Below are positions 41,786 to 61,010 of a DNA stretch of 64,000 nt, one piece after another. The notes below the pieces were generated by a model. That model saw nothing but the letters and a program-made list of their open reading frames with translations. It had not been told where the DNA came from and did not search any database. Position 1 is the first letter of the stretch; each line of letters opens with the position of its first letter. Source of the DNA: Cetobacterium sp. NK01 (GTDB lineage: Bacteria; Fusobacteriota; Fusobacteriia; Fusobacteriales; Fusobacteriaceae); NCBI RefSeq assembly GCF_024506395.1, contig NZ_JANIBO010000001.1, positions 310,001 to 374,000 of the forward strand, given 5' to 3'. The position numbers and the translations under genes are program-made.

Positions 41786-41816
41786 AAAAAATCCCCTTTT
41801 TAAAAGGGGATTTTTT
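41786..41816. terminator. Bidirectional terminator tpx / DUF368 gene
   Basis: AAAAAATCCCC, T/A-rich turn, GGGGATTTTTT (41786-41816): a GC stem flanked by A and T runs, so it works on both strands. The minus-strand gene stops at 41815, inside it. Confidence 0.9.
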
Positions 41817-42558
41817 ATATAAATAATGTTTCAGCTATTTGAATTAATGAAACTATAATTATTCCTACTATAAAATTTAAAGTATAGCTTCTATATTTAT
41901 TTAATAATACATTCATTCCTTTTGAAACTAAAATAAGTCCTATTCCAGTCCCTACAGCAAAAACTCCCAAAGGCAAAATATTAAAACTTTTAATATATCC
42001 TAAAATATTATAATATTCACCTAGAATCATCAACAATAATGATCCTGAAATTCCAGGAATTACCATAGCTCCCGCTGCAACTAAACCACAAAAAAACAAC
42101 TTAATTCCATAAGAAAAAGTAAATATAGAGTCTGCTGTTCTCACTATCTCTTCTCCTGCAAAAATTTTAGTTATATAGATAAATATTCCTGTAAAAATAA
42201 CACCACTTAAAAATGCAATCAAATTATCTTTTTTAAAAAACTTTTCTCCTTTTAAAATTACAGGGATTGAAGGTATTATCAATATTAAGAATATAATCGT
42301 TGTACCCTTTGGATATAATTCATACATTTTTGATATAACTCCTGCAAAAACTACAATTCCTATTACTGCTCCTAATCCAATTTGAGATAAAAATTTAGCA
42401 TACTCTATTTTTTTATTCATTGGTGCTGTTAAAAAATTCCCAACTGCTTCTGTCAATTTATCATAGATATTTAATACAACTGCTAATGTTCCTCCTGAAA
42501 CACCTGGCAAAACATTGGCAATACCTATTATAATTCCTTTTAAAAAATTCTTAAGCAT
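41815..42558 (-). CDS. DUF368 polyprenyl-phosphate-transporter-like membrane protein
   Basis: 247 residues with about seven to eight hydrophobic segments. The DUF368 hallmark is a repeated glycine/proline loop: IGIANVLPGVSGGTLAVVL near the N-terminus and AAGAMVIPGISGSLLLMILG in the second half. Some DUF368 proteins (PopT) recycle undecaprenyl phosphate across the inner membrane; that would suit the uppS pathway here, but the assignment rests on family membership only. Confidence 0.85.
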   Translation of the reverse strand: MLKNFLKGIIIGIANVLPGVSGGTLAVVLNIYDKLTEAVGNFLTAPMNKKIEYAKFLSQIGLGAVIGIVVFAGVISKMYELYPKGTTIIFLILIIPSIPVILKGEKFFKKDNLIAFLSGVIFTGIFIYITKIFAGEEIVRTADSIFTFSYGIKLFFCGLVAAGAMVIPGISGSLLLMILGEYYNILGYIKSFNILPLGVFAVGTGIGLILVSKGMNVLLNKYRSYTLNFIVGIIIVSLIQIAETLFI

Positions 42559-42574
42559 TATTCTCTCCTAATTT

Positions 42575-43630
42575 TTATTTTATTATTTTAGCTATATCAA
42601 TAAGTTTTCCTTGTGAATAAACTTCCACTTTCTCTTTAGAAAATTCATTATAAAAAACATCTACAATAGTTCCTTCTCTTTCTTTTAACGAAGGACTATT
42701 GTATACATTATTTTTTACACGAACTCCACTATTATAAACTTTTCTTTTATATTTATTTAGAAAATATAAAAGTCGAATTTTATCATCGTCACTTAATTGA
42801 TTAATTTCATTTTCCTCTATAAATAAATATTTTTTTATAAATTGTGAAATCTCGTATATATTATTAGGTTTATTTTTATTAAACTCTTTCAGAATATCCG
42901 TATCAATGTATTTTATAAATCGCAATATATTTTCATCAGTTTCTTCTTGAATAAAATTTATTTTTGTTTGAAAAAAAATTATTCTTAATAAATTTTTTGA
43001 AACTCCCATAATTTTTTCATCTAAAGAGATATTCTTAGGATATGCTCCTTCTATTATAATACTTTCCTGAATAAAATTAAATAGTTTTATTAACTCTCTT
43101 TTTTCTTCTTCGAAAATAAAATTTATAATTTTATAATTTTCTTTGTTATAAAATATTGTTAAATAGTAAATTTTATTTTTGTTGTAAAAAAAAGGAATTG
43201 GTACAGCTTTTTGTATAATAGCATATTCATATACTTTATCCTTTTTTACTGATTTTATTGAATTTTGTTTTATATTCTCATCCAAATTATTTATTATTCT
43301 AAAAAATGTTGGATAACTAATCATAGTATTACAAGAATTTAAAGTATTTTTTGCTTTATCGTATAACTTTGTTATAGGTAAGGTATGGTATTCTTTGTAC
43401 AAAGTCTTTAGGTGACTTAAGGTATCTTCATTTACTTTTTTAAAAGTATTTTTATCTGCTCTTGTTTTTTTTAAAAGTCCTTTTTCTCCTAAATCTTTAT
43501 ATTGACTTACCCATCTTTTTAAAGTGGCATAGGATATTTGGGTTTCTTTTTCTATCTCTCTTAATTTTTTCTCCTTCTTAAAAAAGGGCTCAAGTATCTT
43601 ATATTTTTTATTTTTTTCATCTACATTCAT
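42575..43630 (-). CDS. Mu/TnsB-type transposase-derived DNA-binding protein with apparently dead catalytic core
   Basis: 351 residues. The N-terminal 120 residues look like the HTH region of Mu/TnsB transposases (REIEKETQISYATLKRWVSQ, GLLKKTRADKNTFKKVNEDT, ISYPTFFRIIN). Residues 140-250 match the rve core in outline (IYYLTIFYNKENYKIINF; ISLDEKIMG; NILRFI). The second aspartate may be kept (D204), but I find no counterpart of the first, and the expected ER pair reads L236-R237. The last 70 residues resemble Mu-transpos_C (RVKNNVYNSPSLKEREGTIV then VEVYSQGKLIDIA). No terminal repeats or TnsC/MuB ATPase partner are nearby. It is probably a domesticated DNA-binding protein, divergent from the PTS gene. 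Alignment was done by eye. Confidence 0.7.
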   Translation of the reverse strand: MNVDEKNKKYKILEPFFKKEKKLREIEKETQISYATLKRWVSQYKDLGEKGLLKKTRADKNTFKKVNEDTLSHLKTLYKEYHTLPITKLYDKAKNTLNSCNTMISYPTFFRIINNLDENIKQNSIKSVKKDKVYEYAIIQKAVPIPFFYNKNKIYYLTIFYNKENYKIINFIFEEEKRELIKLFNFIQESIIIEGAYPKNISLDEKIMGVSKNLLRIIFFQTKINFIQEETDENILRFIKYIDTDILKEFNKNKPNNIYEISQFIKKYLFIEENEINQLSDDDKIRLLYFLNKYKRKVYNSGVRVKNNVYNSPSLKEREGTIVDVFYNEFSKEKVEVYSQGKLIDIAKIIK

Positions 43631-43665: not shown

Positions 43666-43674
43666 ATTATAACA
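43666..43674 (-). promoter_or_regulatory. Extended -10 promoter of the transposase-derived gene
   Basis: Minus-strand TGTTATAAT (TATAAT at 43666-43671 with TGn), no good -35; 36 nt upstream of the start. Confidence 0.5.
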
Positions 43675-43718
43675 CAATTAATGCGTAAAAAAAAGGCTCA
43701 TTTATTTTGATAATTTTC

Positions 43719-43763
43719 TTGACTTTTTTTAAAATAAAATGTATTCTTTTAGTGAATTAACTA
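43719..43763 (+). promoter_or_regulatory. Promoter and possible operator of the PTS gene
   Basis: TTGACT (43719-43724), 17 bp, TATTCT (43742-43747). Immediately downstream is a short dyad TAGT-N6-ACTA (43750-43763) at the expected transcription start, a position suited to an operator. Confidence 0.5.
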
Positions 43764-43791: not shown

Positions 43792-45267
43792 ATGAAAATA
43801 TTTGCTGAAGTTCAAAAAATCGGTAAAGCATTGATGACACCGGTTGCAATTTTACCAGCTGCTGGTATATTTCTTGCTGCTGGTAATAAGTTAGGAATAC
43901 CTTTAATGGAGCAAGCAGGAGGAATTATTTTTGGTAACTTACCACTTCTATTTGCTGTTGGAGCTGCTATTGGTCTTGTTGGTGGAGACGGTATCGCTGC
44001 ACTTGCTGCTATCGTAGCGCTTTTAATTATGAATACAACTATGGGAACACTAACAGATGCTGCAAATGGTATCGCTGCTGGAAACCCTGCTTTTGCTGAG
44101 GTTTTAGGAATCCCTACACTTCAAACTGGAGTTTTCGGAGGGCTTATCGCAGGTATTATAGCTGCAATTTGTTATAAAAAATTCTATAAAACTGAATTAC
44201 CTGCATTTTTAGGATTCTTTGCCGGTAAAAGATTAGTTCCAATTATGACTGCTGTTCTTGCTTTCTTAGTTGGTTTAGCTATGCCTTATATTTGGCAACC
44301 AGTTCAAGCAGGGCTTGCACAATTATCATATTTAGCTAATGAAACAAATACTAATATCTCTACATTATTATTTGGTATAACTGAAAGAGCATTAATTCCT
44401 TTTGGATTACACCATATATTCTATGCACCGTTCTGGTTCCAATTTGGAGAGTATACAAACAACGCTGGTCAAATTGTTAATGGAGACCAAGCTATCTGGT
44501 TTGCAATGTTAAAAGATGGAGTACATTCATTCTCATCAGCTACTTATTCTGGTGCTGGTAAATTTATGACTGGTAAATTCCCATTCATGATGTTTGGATT
44601 ACCTGCTGCTGCACTTGCTATGTATCATGAAGCTAGAACTGAAAATAAAAAGATGGCTGCTGGAATTTTATTCTCTGCTGCTCTTACATCTTTTTTAACA
44701 GGAATAACTGAACCTCTAGAATTCTCATTCTTATTCGTTGCTCCTATATTATATGGAATTCACTGTGTATTTGCAGGACTATCATTTATGTTAATGAATA
44801 TGTTTGGTGTTAGAATTGGTATGACATTCTCTGGTGGAGTTATAGATTACATCATGTTCGGTGTTTTACCTGGTACTGAAGGATTTGAAACTAACTGGCC
44901 AATGGTTATAGTTGTAGGAATTGGATTCTCTATTATCTATTATTTCGGATTTAGATTCTTTATTAGAAAGTTTAATTTAGCAACTCCTGGAAGAGAAGTT
45001 GGCTCTGATATTGATGATCAGCCTAAAGCTCAAGGTAGTGAATTAGCAACTCTTGTTTTAGCTGCTCTAGGTGGAAAAGAAAACTTAATATCTGTAGATG
45101 CTTGTATAACTAGATTAAGACTTGAAGTTAAAGATTCATCTCTTGTTAATGATGCTGAGTTAAAAAGATTAGGAGCATCTGGAGTTTTAAAAGTTGGACA
45201 AAATGGAGTTCAAGTAATATTTGGTGCTAAAGCACAATTTATTGCAAATGATATAAAAGCGTTATAA
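43792..45267 (+). CDS. nagE: PTS transporter IICB, N-acetylglucosamine type
   Basis: 491 residues: EIIC (about 1-385, with [37 protein letters not shown] and [18 protein letters not shown]) and EIIB (about 415-491, phosphorylated cysteine C438 in VDACITRLR). The [16 protein letters not shown] segment is characteristic of the GlcNAc branch. The EIIA domain found in E. coli NagE is absent, so a separate EIIA-Glc-type protein is needed. Imports and phosphorylates GlcNAc, giving GlcNAc-6-P. Strong SD GGAGG. Single gene between promoter and terminator. Confidence 0.9.
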
Positions 45268-59446: not shown

Positions 59447-59500
59447 TATAATTAATGAAAATTATTTTCATATATGTATATTTATATGAAAATAATTTAT
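59447..59500 (+). promoter_or_regulatory. PTS-nanE promoter region with tandem operator-like sites
   Basis: A TATAAT (59447-59452) is followed immediately by a perfect 7-3-7 palindrome ATGAAAATTATTTTCAT (59455-59471). A second partial copy ATGAAAATAATTTAT lies at 59486-59500, centre-to-centre 31 bp away, close to three helical turns. They fit a repressor or activator of the RpiR type. A CRP/FNR-like half-site TGTGA occurs at 59431-59435, just upstream of the -10; this is weak. Confidence 0.5.
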
Positions 59501-59516
59501 GCAACAGGAGGTTACT

Positions 59517-61010
59517 ATGTTTAAAAATTTACAAAAAATTGGTAAATCATTCATGCTTCCAATAGCTATTTTACCAGCTGCTGGATTGCTTTTAGGAATT
59601 GGAGGAGCTCTTTCAAACGCAAACACTGTCAATGCTTATCCTTTCTTAAATATACCAATTCTACAAGGTATTTTACAAGTTATGTCTGCTTCTGGAGAAG
59701 TTATTTTTGCTAATCTAGCTCTTATTATGTGTATTGGACTTGCTATTGGATTAGCTAAAAAAGATAAAGGAACAGCTGGTTTAGCTGGTGCTGTAGCTTT
59801 TTTAGTTATGAATGCTTCTATTAAAGGATTAATTACAGCATTTAAACCTGAAGTAGGGTCTATCGACACAGGTGTTGTTGGAGCTATTGTTATAGGTTCT
59901 TTAGTAGCTTACCTACATAATAAATATAGCAATATTAAACTGCCTGCTGTTCTTGGTTTCTTTGGTGGATCAAGATTTGTTCCTATTGTTTCTTCTTTTG
60001 CAGCAATTGGAATCGGTATAATATTTTTCTTAACATGGCCAACATTCCAAGGATGGCTAACATCTGCTGGAAAGTCGATTGCTAGTTTAGGAATTTTTGG
60101 AACTTTCCTTTATGGTTTTCTTTTAAGACTAAGTGGAGCTGTTGGACTACATCACATGATTTATCCTTTATTCTGGTATACTGAGCTTGGTGGAACTGCT
60201 CAAGTTGCTGGAAAAACTATTGTTGGAGCTCAGAATATTTTCTTTGCTCAATTAGCTGATCCTAATCATACTGGTCTATTTACTGAGGGAACTAGATTTT
60301 TTGCTGGACGTTTTGCTACTATGATGTTTGGTCTTCCAGCTGCTTGTTTAGCTATGTACCATTGTACACCTCTAAATAAAAGAAAACTTGTTGGTGGATT
60401 ATTTTTAGGAGCTGCAATTACATCTTTTATCACAGGAATTACAGAACCTATCGAATTTATGTTTTTATTTGTTGCTCCTTGGTTATATGGAGTTCATGCA
60501 TTCTTTGATGGTTTATCTTTTCTTGTAGCTGATTTATTAAATATATCTATTGGAAATACATTCTCTGGAGGTTTAATAGACTTTACTCTTTTTGGTGTTC
60601 TACAAGGAAATGAAGCGACTAATTGGATGTATGTTTTAATAATTGGAGCGATTTGGTTTGCTCTGTATTATTTTTCTTTTGTATTCTTAATTAAGCGTTT
60701 CAACATTGCAACTCCTGGTAGAGAGGGAGATGATGAAGAGATTAAAATAGTAACTAAAGATTCTCTTTTTGAAACATCTAAAGAAGTTTTAGCTGCTCTT
60801 GGTGGAAAAGAAAATATTGATGATGTTGATGCTTGTATAACAAGACTTAGAGTATCTGTTAAAGATGTATCTAAAGTTGACAAAGCTAAATTAAAAAGTC
60901 TTGGTGCAACTGGAGTTTTAGAAGTACAAGGTGGGATTCAAGCTATTTTTGGAGCTATGGCTGATCCTATTAAACAAAAAATAAATGAGATTATAGAAAA
61001 TAACAACTAG
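59517..61010 (+). CDS. PTS transporter IICB, glucose/GlcNAc superfamily
   Basis: 497 residues from ATG 59517 (AGGAGG 5-6 nt before; an in-frame ATG at 59499 precedes the SD). EIIC about 1-400 (FMLPIAILPAAGLLLGIGGA, RLSGAVGLHHMIYPLFWYTE, FITGITEPIEFMFLFVAPWL) and EIIB with cysteine C440 ([13 protein letters not shown]). No EIIA. Followed 9 nt later by nanE and preceded by an RpiR gene, which points to ManNAc (or another amino sugar) rather than glucose. Confidence 0.9.
   Translation: MFKNLQKIGKSFMLPIAILPAAGLLLGIGGALSNANTVNAYPFLNIPILQGILQVMSASGEVIFANLALIMCIGLAIGLAKKDKGTAGLAGAVAFLVMNASIKGLITAFKPEVGSIDTGVVGAIVIGSLVAYLHNKYSNIKLPAVLGFFGGSRFVPIVSSFAAIGIGIIFFLTWPTFQGWLTSAGKSIASLGIFGTFLYGFLLRLSGAVGLHHMIYPLFWYTELGGTAQVAGKTIVGAQNIFFAQLADPNHTGLFTEGTRFFAGRFATMMFGLPAACLAMYHCTPLNKRKLVGGLFLGAAITSFITGITEPIEFMFLFVAPWLYGVHAFFDGLSFLVADLLNISIGNTFSGGLIDFTLFGVLQGNEATNWMYVLIIGAIWFALYYFSFVFLIKRFNIATPGREGDDEEIKIVTKDSLFETSKEVLAALGGKENIDDVDACITRLRVSVKDVSKVDKAKLKSLGATGVLEVQGGIQAIFGAMADPIKQKINEIIENNN

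Follow-up and report, generated by a model that had tools for sequence, protein, structure and literature searches.

Turning a transposase into a transcription factor is a classic route in eukaryotes, and it is well known in animals and plants. To our knowledge, no transcription factor derived from a DDE transposase has been worked out in bacteria, where this fate has hardly been described. TnsB and MuA recognize asymmetric DNA sites, about 22 bp long, through a two-part helix-turn-helix (HTH). Mlc and GlcT are the ptsG regulators of E. coli and Bacillus, and TldR proteins derive from the RNA-guided nuclease TnpB. The closest bacterial precedents in the literature we searched are TldR (PMC13418256) and Ner/SfsB (PMC8987985). 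TldR proteins are RNA-guided transcription factors (PMC13418256). They are likewise a bacterial transposon protein turned transcription factor. SfsB/Ner is likewise an element-encoded DNA-binding protein reused for the control of sugar genes, but Ner was a small phage Xre-type regulator from the outset and not a transposase; the portion available of this 2022 review of recruited mobile elements concerns Xre/RHH-type regulators, not transposases (PMC8987985). In the open-licence PMC literature we found no description of a Mu-C-type regulator or of a Fusobacterium ptsG regulator.

Here we describe such a candidate in a 64,000-nucleotide stretch of the genome of Cetobacterium sp. NK01 (the window). 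A first-pass annotation had proposed that a dead Mu/TnsB-type transposase was co-opted here to regulate sugar uptake. This proposal is borne out by fold, loss of the catalytic triad, selection, pairing with PTS genes and a candidate cognate site, with binding inferred. We put at roughly 0.85 the probability that a domesticated Tn552/TnsB-type DDE transposase, no longer catalytic, serves here as a dedicated local regulator of PTS genes, its binding and its effect on expression being inferred. All of the evidence is computational, without binding, expression or genetic data. The open reading frame was confirmed as 351 codons divergent from ptsG (start 43792), and the gene, its presumed target and its domains are as follows.

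42575..43630, minus strand: regulator gene, a 351-aa domesticated TnsB/Tn552-type transposase.
43792..45267, plus strand: ptsG, glucose-specific PTS IIBC, the presumed target (TIGR02002, above cut-off).
43475..43624, minus strand: first HTH, residues 3-52, with an invariant TLKRW recognition helix (Pfam, AF2 model).
43283..43429, minus strand: second helical/HTH-like domain, residues 68-116 (AF2 model; whole-length TnsB/MuA alignments).
42875..43228, minus strand: RNase H-like (rve) core, residues 135-252, catalytically dead (AF2 model, TnsB match).
42584..42757, minus strand: Mu-transpos_C beta barrel, residues 292-349 (Pfam, AF2 model).

What kind of protein is this? Pfam HTH_28 (residues 9-58, 5e-6) and Mu-transpos_C (residues 290-343, 1e-8) both match above cut-off and are found in all 27 homologues of alignment A1; no Pfam rve match was obtained in the 351-aa protein. 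An AF2 model built from 17 relatives (pLDDT 81.6, pTM 0.59) places helical DNA-binding units at 3-52 and 68-116, an RNase H-like core at 135-252 and a barrel at 292-349. The Foldseek comparison with MuA and TnsB that the first-pass annotation called for gave ShCAST TnsB, MuA, Tn7 TnsB and IstA as the best PDB matches (E of 5.5e-14 for TnsB 7svw and 1.2e-11 for MuA 4fcy), and a structure match of the model had a VIA Z of 14.4. From sequence alone, the family profile reached ShCAST TnsB at E=1.6e-16; this profile was required, as a PDB sequence search with the single protein returned no useful match. As modelled, the protein is a full TnsB/MuA/Tn552-type fold with a two-part HTH, an RNase H-like core and a Mu-C barrel. 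The order of HTH, rve-like core and barrel, noticed earlier in the letters, is thus upheld by Pfam, the model and the TnsB, MuA and IstA matches. It satisfies one criterion for an active DDE (Tn552/TnsB/MuA) transposase, and fold and domain order are common to TnsB (type V-K CAST/Tn7) and MuA. Tn552-type transposases, Mu-C family proteins of about 480 aa that come with an AAA ATPase, have the same domain order, and the sequence similarity extends from HTH to barrel. An assignment to the IS481 transposases (NCBIfam) was rejected at 39.4 bits against a cut-off of 224, with only the N-terminal region matched.

The remaining criteria for an active transposase are not met: an intact triad, a partner AAA+ ATPase (TnsC/MuB/IstB) and flanking inverted ends or mobility. 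The catalytic positions map as follows.

43214..43216, minus strand: I139, first catalytic Asp position, lost (ShCAST TnsB mapping, Tn552-type alignment).
43019..43021, minus strand: D204, second catalytic Asp position, kept (same two sources).
42920..42925, minus strand: L236-R237, catalytic Glu position, lost (same two sources).

ShCAST TnsB D205, D287 and E321 correspond to I139, D204 and R237, and the Glu aligns to L236 when Tn552-type transposases are the reference. The earlier guesses that D204 is the second Asp and that L236-R237 occupies the place of the ER pair were correct by both alignments. Its view that the DDE center is dead extends to the whole family: the first Asp is present in none of 46 aligned regulators, the second position is Asp in 22 of them and S, A, N or T in the remainder, the third is Glu in only 8, and a complete D-D-E triad occurs in 0/46. 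In the same alignment, all three acids are present in three plasmid-borne Tn552-type transposases, each next to an AAA ATPase gene, and in a 618-aa phage-Mu-like transposase of family genome G071 (L135:3177-6010, minus strand), which is followed by a MuB-like ATPase.

The absence of transposon ends and of a neighboring TnsC/MuB ATPase, also claimed earlier, held up. No such ATPase was found among the window's open reading frames at 37.7-48.4 kb, and the annotated neighbors of the relatives inspected include no transposition ATPase, unlike those of the Tn552-type matches. No transposon ends were recognizable within about 1-2 kb of the gene; repeats within 2 kb were considered as ends and dismissed as ordinary AT-rich chance repeats. 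Three acids together with intact ends and an adjacent ATPase would have refuted the proposal, and this combination was looked for and not met. Because these three defining features fail, we file the regulator as an exapted relative of Tn552/TnsB-type transposases and not as a member. The regulators differ from Tn552-type proteins in missing the DDE acids, an ATPase and transposon ends, in a shorter C terminus and in their PTS neighbors.

The regulator was said to face a PTS gene, and comparison across 52 loci (the window and 51 others, a few partial or decayed) gives a divergent PTS gene in 52/52, which meets the criterion of conserved divergent linkage for a local regulator. The partner is ptsG in most loci and ptsI in four (L059, L060, L061 and L063), while in six (L049, L052, L055, L056, L062 and L131) it is crr, with ptsG behind it. 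In RefSeq, the regulator lies opposite ptsH-ptsI-crr-nagE in Haliovirga and, on a plasmid of Cetobacterium somerae, opposite a PTS EIIC gene. Across 61 Fusobacteriaceae genomes, 44 encode both regulator and ptsG, 3 ptsG only, none the regulator only and 14 neither. Since three genomes retain ptsG without it, the regulator is dispensable for having ptsG. Early branches of the regulator tree lead to the ptsI type and to part of the crr types, so on sequence grounds the ptsG link may be derived, although the deep forks are weak.

Several other genes lie near these loci. A second crr-like gene is found on the far side of the regulator in genus g14 (L049:6151-6681, L052:6137-6667). In the window, 41815-42558 on the minus strand, which we take to be a DUF368-type membrane protein gene, starts 16 nt past the regulator stop on the same strand; a gene of this type lies downstream of the regulator in Cetobacterium and genus g10, and the two may be co-transcribed. 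The window also holds a second IIBC PTS gene (59499-61010, plus strand), preceded by an RpiR-type regulator and followed by a NanE-like gene, which judging by sequence probably serves amino-sugar uptake.

Could the gene simply be a transposase relic? The regulator is present in the 44 Fusobacteriaceae genomes mentioned and in Haliovirga, with carriers including Cetobacterium, Fusobacterium mortiferum, Propionigenium maris, Ilyobacter, Psychrilyobacter and Haliovirga abyssi. None was found in the sampled genomes of another family of the same order (f4), and at the sensitivity used neither phage records nor viral contigs yielded a relative. In the tree, regulators split from transposases with 99% SH-aLRT, and dN/dS between species of 0.03-0.15 indicates purifying selection. 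Clear descent from transposases is what an inactive insertion would leave, retained by chance or as an antagonist of resident transposons. We consider this very unlikely in view of the purifying selection, the same PTS neighbor across at least 10 genera and the near absence of other Mu-C transposases: the only other Mu-C proteins in the 61 genomes are one full-length phage-Mu-like protein and a short unresolved match in G013. Purifying selection, a conserved place in many species and loss of catalysis are the criteria for a domesticated transposase, and all are met. The regulator is an established host gene and not a mobile element. Some copies are carried by large plasmids, and the genome of the window has a second, intact regulator/ptsG pair on another contig (C3). 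In this same genome (G000), a third pair (contig C4, L064:7310-10072) has both regulator and ptsG broken, a case of joint decay.

The intergenic region contains a candidate site for the regulator.

43689..43714, plus strand: O1, putative operator, AAAAAAGGCTCATTTATTTTGATAAT, asymmetric; its GGCTCA begins 24 nt before the ptsG -35.
43719..43747, plus strand: ptsG promoter, TTGACT-17-TATTCT (sequence, intergenic alignment).
43666..43674, minus strand: regulator promoter, extended -10 TGTTATAAT (read from sequence; conserved within Cetobacterium).

The extended -10 promoter attributed to the regulator was found where expected, reading TGTTATAAT from 43674 to 43666 on the minus strand. The short dyad reported at the ptsG promoter did not survive comparison, as it is not conserved beyond Cetobacterium; what is conserved is instead an asymmetric site immediately 5' of the PTS -35, with the consensus AAAAAAGGCTCAWTTWTTTTGAWA in the intergenic alignment. 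The distance from GGCTCA to the PTS -35 is 22-25 nt in 49/52 loci, whichever PTS gene is present; L056, L060 and L062 have no clear O1 at this spacing. (At L131 the automatic start codon is too far upstream, and the site was taken from a separate site scan.) The O1 position weight matrix (PWM) was trained on these loci, and the independent tests are pattern searches, spacing and controls. All 25 matches of a strict O1 pattern in the 61 genomes lie in a regulator/PTS intergenic region, its reversed control had no match in these genomes, and all but 4 of 57 matches of a looser pattern fall within the regulator locus. This confinement, essentially to one locus, speaks against the earlier suggestion that the protein shapes local chromatin.

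It remains conceivable that O1 belongs to another regulator, such as a global catabolite regulator, and that its transposase-like neighbor has a different job; no binding data exist to exclude this. We regard it as improbable, since the distribution of O1 follows the regulator gene. With <=3 mismatches allowed, the genome of the window has a single match to the extended pattern. Only background scores were obtained before the three regulator-less ptsG genes and before the second ptsG of G031, a genome that does bear the regulator, and the same was true of the window's other IIBC gene (59499). Conversely, where ptsI or crr adjoins the regulator, it is that gene which O1 precedes, and the site is found again within the regulator's own coding sequence. 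A site that is conserved at the target promoter and occurs only alongside the regulator is the other criterion for a local regulator that is met here. We also asked whether O1 came from transposon ends. The motif scored nothing above background near Tn552-type transposases, where the best match fell in homologous codons of the transposase gene. O1 is placed by a promoter and not at a DNA end, in which the regulator, catalytically dead and kept by its host, differs from TnsB and MuA.

In Fusobacterium and other genera, the second copy of the site, O2, reads TTAAAAAAGGCTCAATTATTTTGAAA on the strand antisense to codons KIIEPFL. It has the orientation of O1 and lies 130-164 nt from it. O2 is intact in Fusobacterium and other genera and decayed in Cetobacterium (PWM 13-18 where found, versus 34.8 for O1), including the window.

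43581..43606, plus strand: O2', degenerate second site in the regulator 5' coding region (PWM 13.0).

Taken jointly, six neighboring O2 codons show the strongest synonymous conservation among 74 conserved columns, with the minority codon GAG in 28/29 genes, and 0/20000 random column sets equaled this constraint. The latter is not a strict probability because the genes are related; the rest of the same genes served as control. O1-O2 distances cluster at 130-133, 139-145, 153-156 and 161-164 nt. Helical phasing (best period 11.15-11.45; R(10.5)=0.43-0.61) is only suggestive, as the period was picked post hoc and lineages are not independent. Four loci (L039, L047, L049 and L055) have a weak reverse-orientation copy, AAAAAAAGCTCAAAGATATAGAAAA (PWM 9-15). 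Located about 34 nt past O2, some 90-105 nt into the regulator gene and near codon 30, it may be a third site or just KLKDIE codons.

Two direct-repeat sites in many loci, together with the retention of D204 in Cetobacterium, could be taken to mean that the protein is still an active, non-canonical recombinase acting on O1 and O2. We find this the hardest reading to credit, given that the first Asp is lost in 46/46, the Glu in most and the second Asp replaced by T, S, A or N in about half, and that no inverted or excised arrangement was seen among the loci inspected.

How, then, might a dedicated PTS regulator of this kind work? Its fold, loss of catalysis, selection, linkage and co-occurring site were computed, while binding to O1 and O2, control of the PTS promoter and self-control are inferred. 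The two-part N-terminal HTH would read asymmetric O1, about 22-26 bp, upstream of the PTS -35; an asymmetric site of this length is in keeping with a two-part HTH like that of MuA and TnsB, with binding inferred by analogy. In most genera outside Cetobacterium, the regulator would also read O2 in its own 5' coding region. The two sites flank the regulator promoter, and bridging or loading both is inferred to cause autorepression; the regulator probably controls itself too. Occupancy of O1 is inferred to control the PTS promoter. The regulator would probably respond to a sugar phosphate or to the state of the PTS, an analogy drawn from Mlc/EIIB and not shown.

The sign of this control is less certain. 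We lean slightly to repression over activation, on the grounds that the PTS promoters come close to consensus (TTGACT/A, about 17, TATTAT-like) and that paired sites surround the regulator promoter. Activation is a variant that differs in sign only: at O1, core or barrel would contact sigma region 4 or alpha-CTD and recruit RNA polymerase. It is a serious possibility, short of our preference, as O1 lies wholly upstream of the -35 with a spacing of 22-25 nt across ptsG, crr and ptsI promoters. Near-consensus promoters, however, usually need no activator, and a second operator within the gene suits a repression loop. The near-fixed spacing itself is compatible both with occlusion by the protein body and with polymerase contact. 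More tentatively still in its details, the family may be one of transcription factors from a DDE transposase in which the pairing of two asymmetric, end-like sites is inherited from the transpososome, with one site at the PTS promoter and the other in the regulator's coding sequence, and a repression loop replaces the synaptic complex.

The regulator follows the path of eukaryotic domesticated-transposase transcription factors, with catalysis lost and DNA binding kept (the latter inferred here), but those arose from different DDE families and its host is a bacterium. TldR uses a guide RNA, whereas the regulator is a DDE transposase with a putative direct DNA site. With Mlc and GlcT it has in common a presumed role, local control of the glucose PTS, and neither protein families nor site types are related. 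Very probably, then, a dead jumping-gene enzyme is now a permanent switch protein beside the glucose-uptake genes of Fusobacteria, in the absence of binding data. The family lends itself to testing, with target and site both named, and it presents a putative regulatory site maintained in coding sequence through synonymous constraint. It also provides a candidate regulator of glucose uptake for a phylum with few known regulators.
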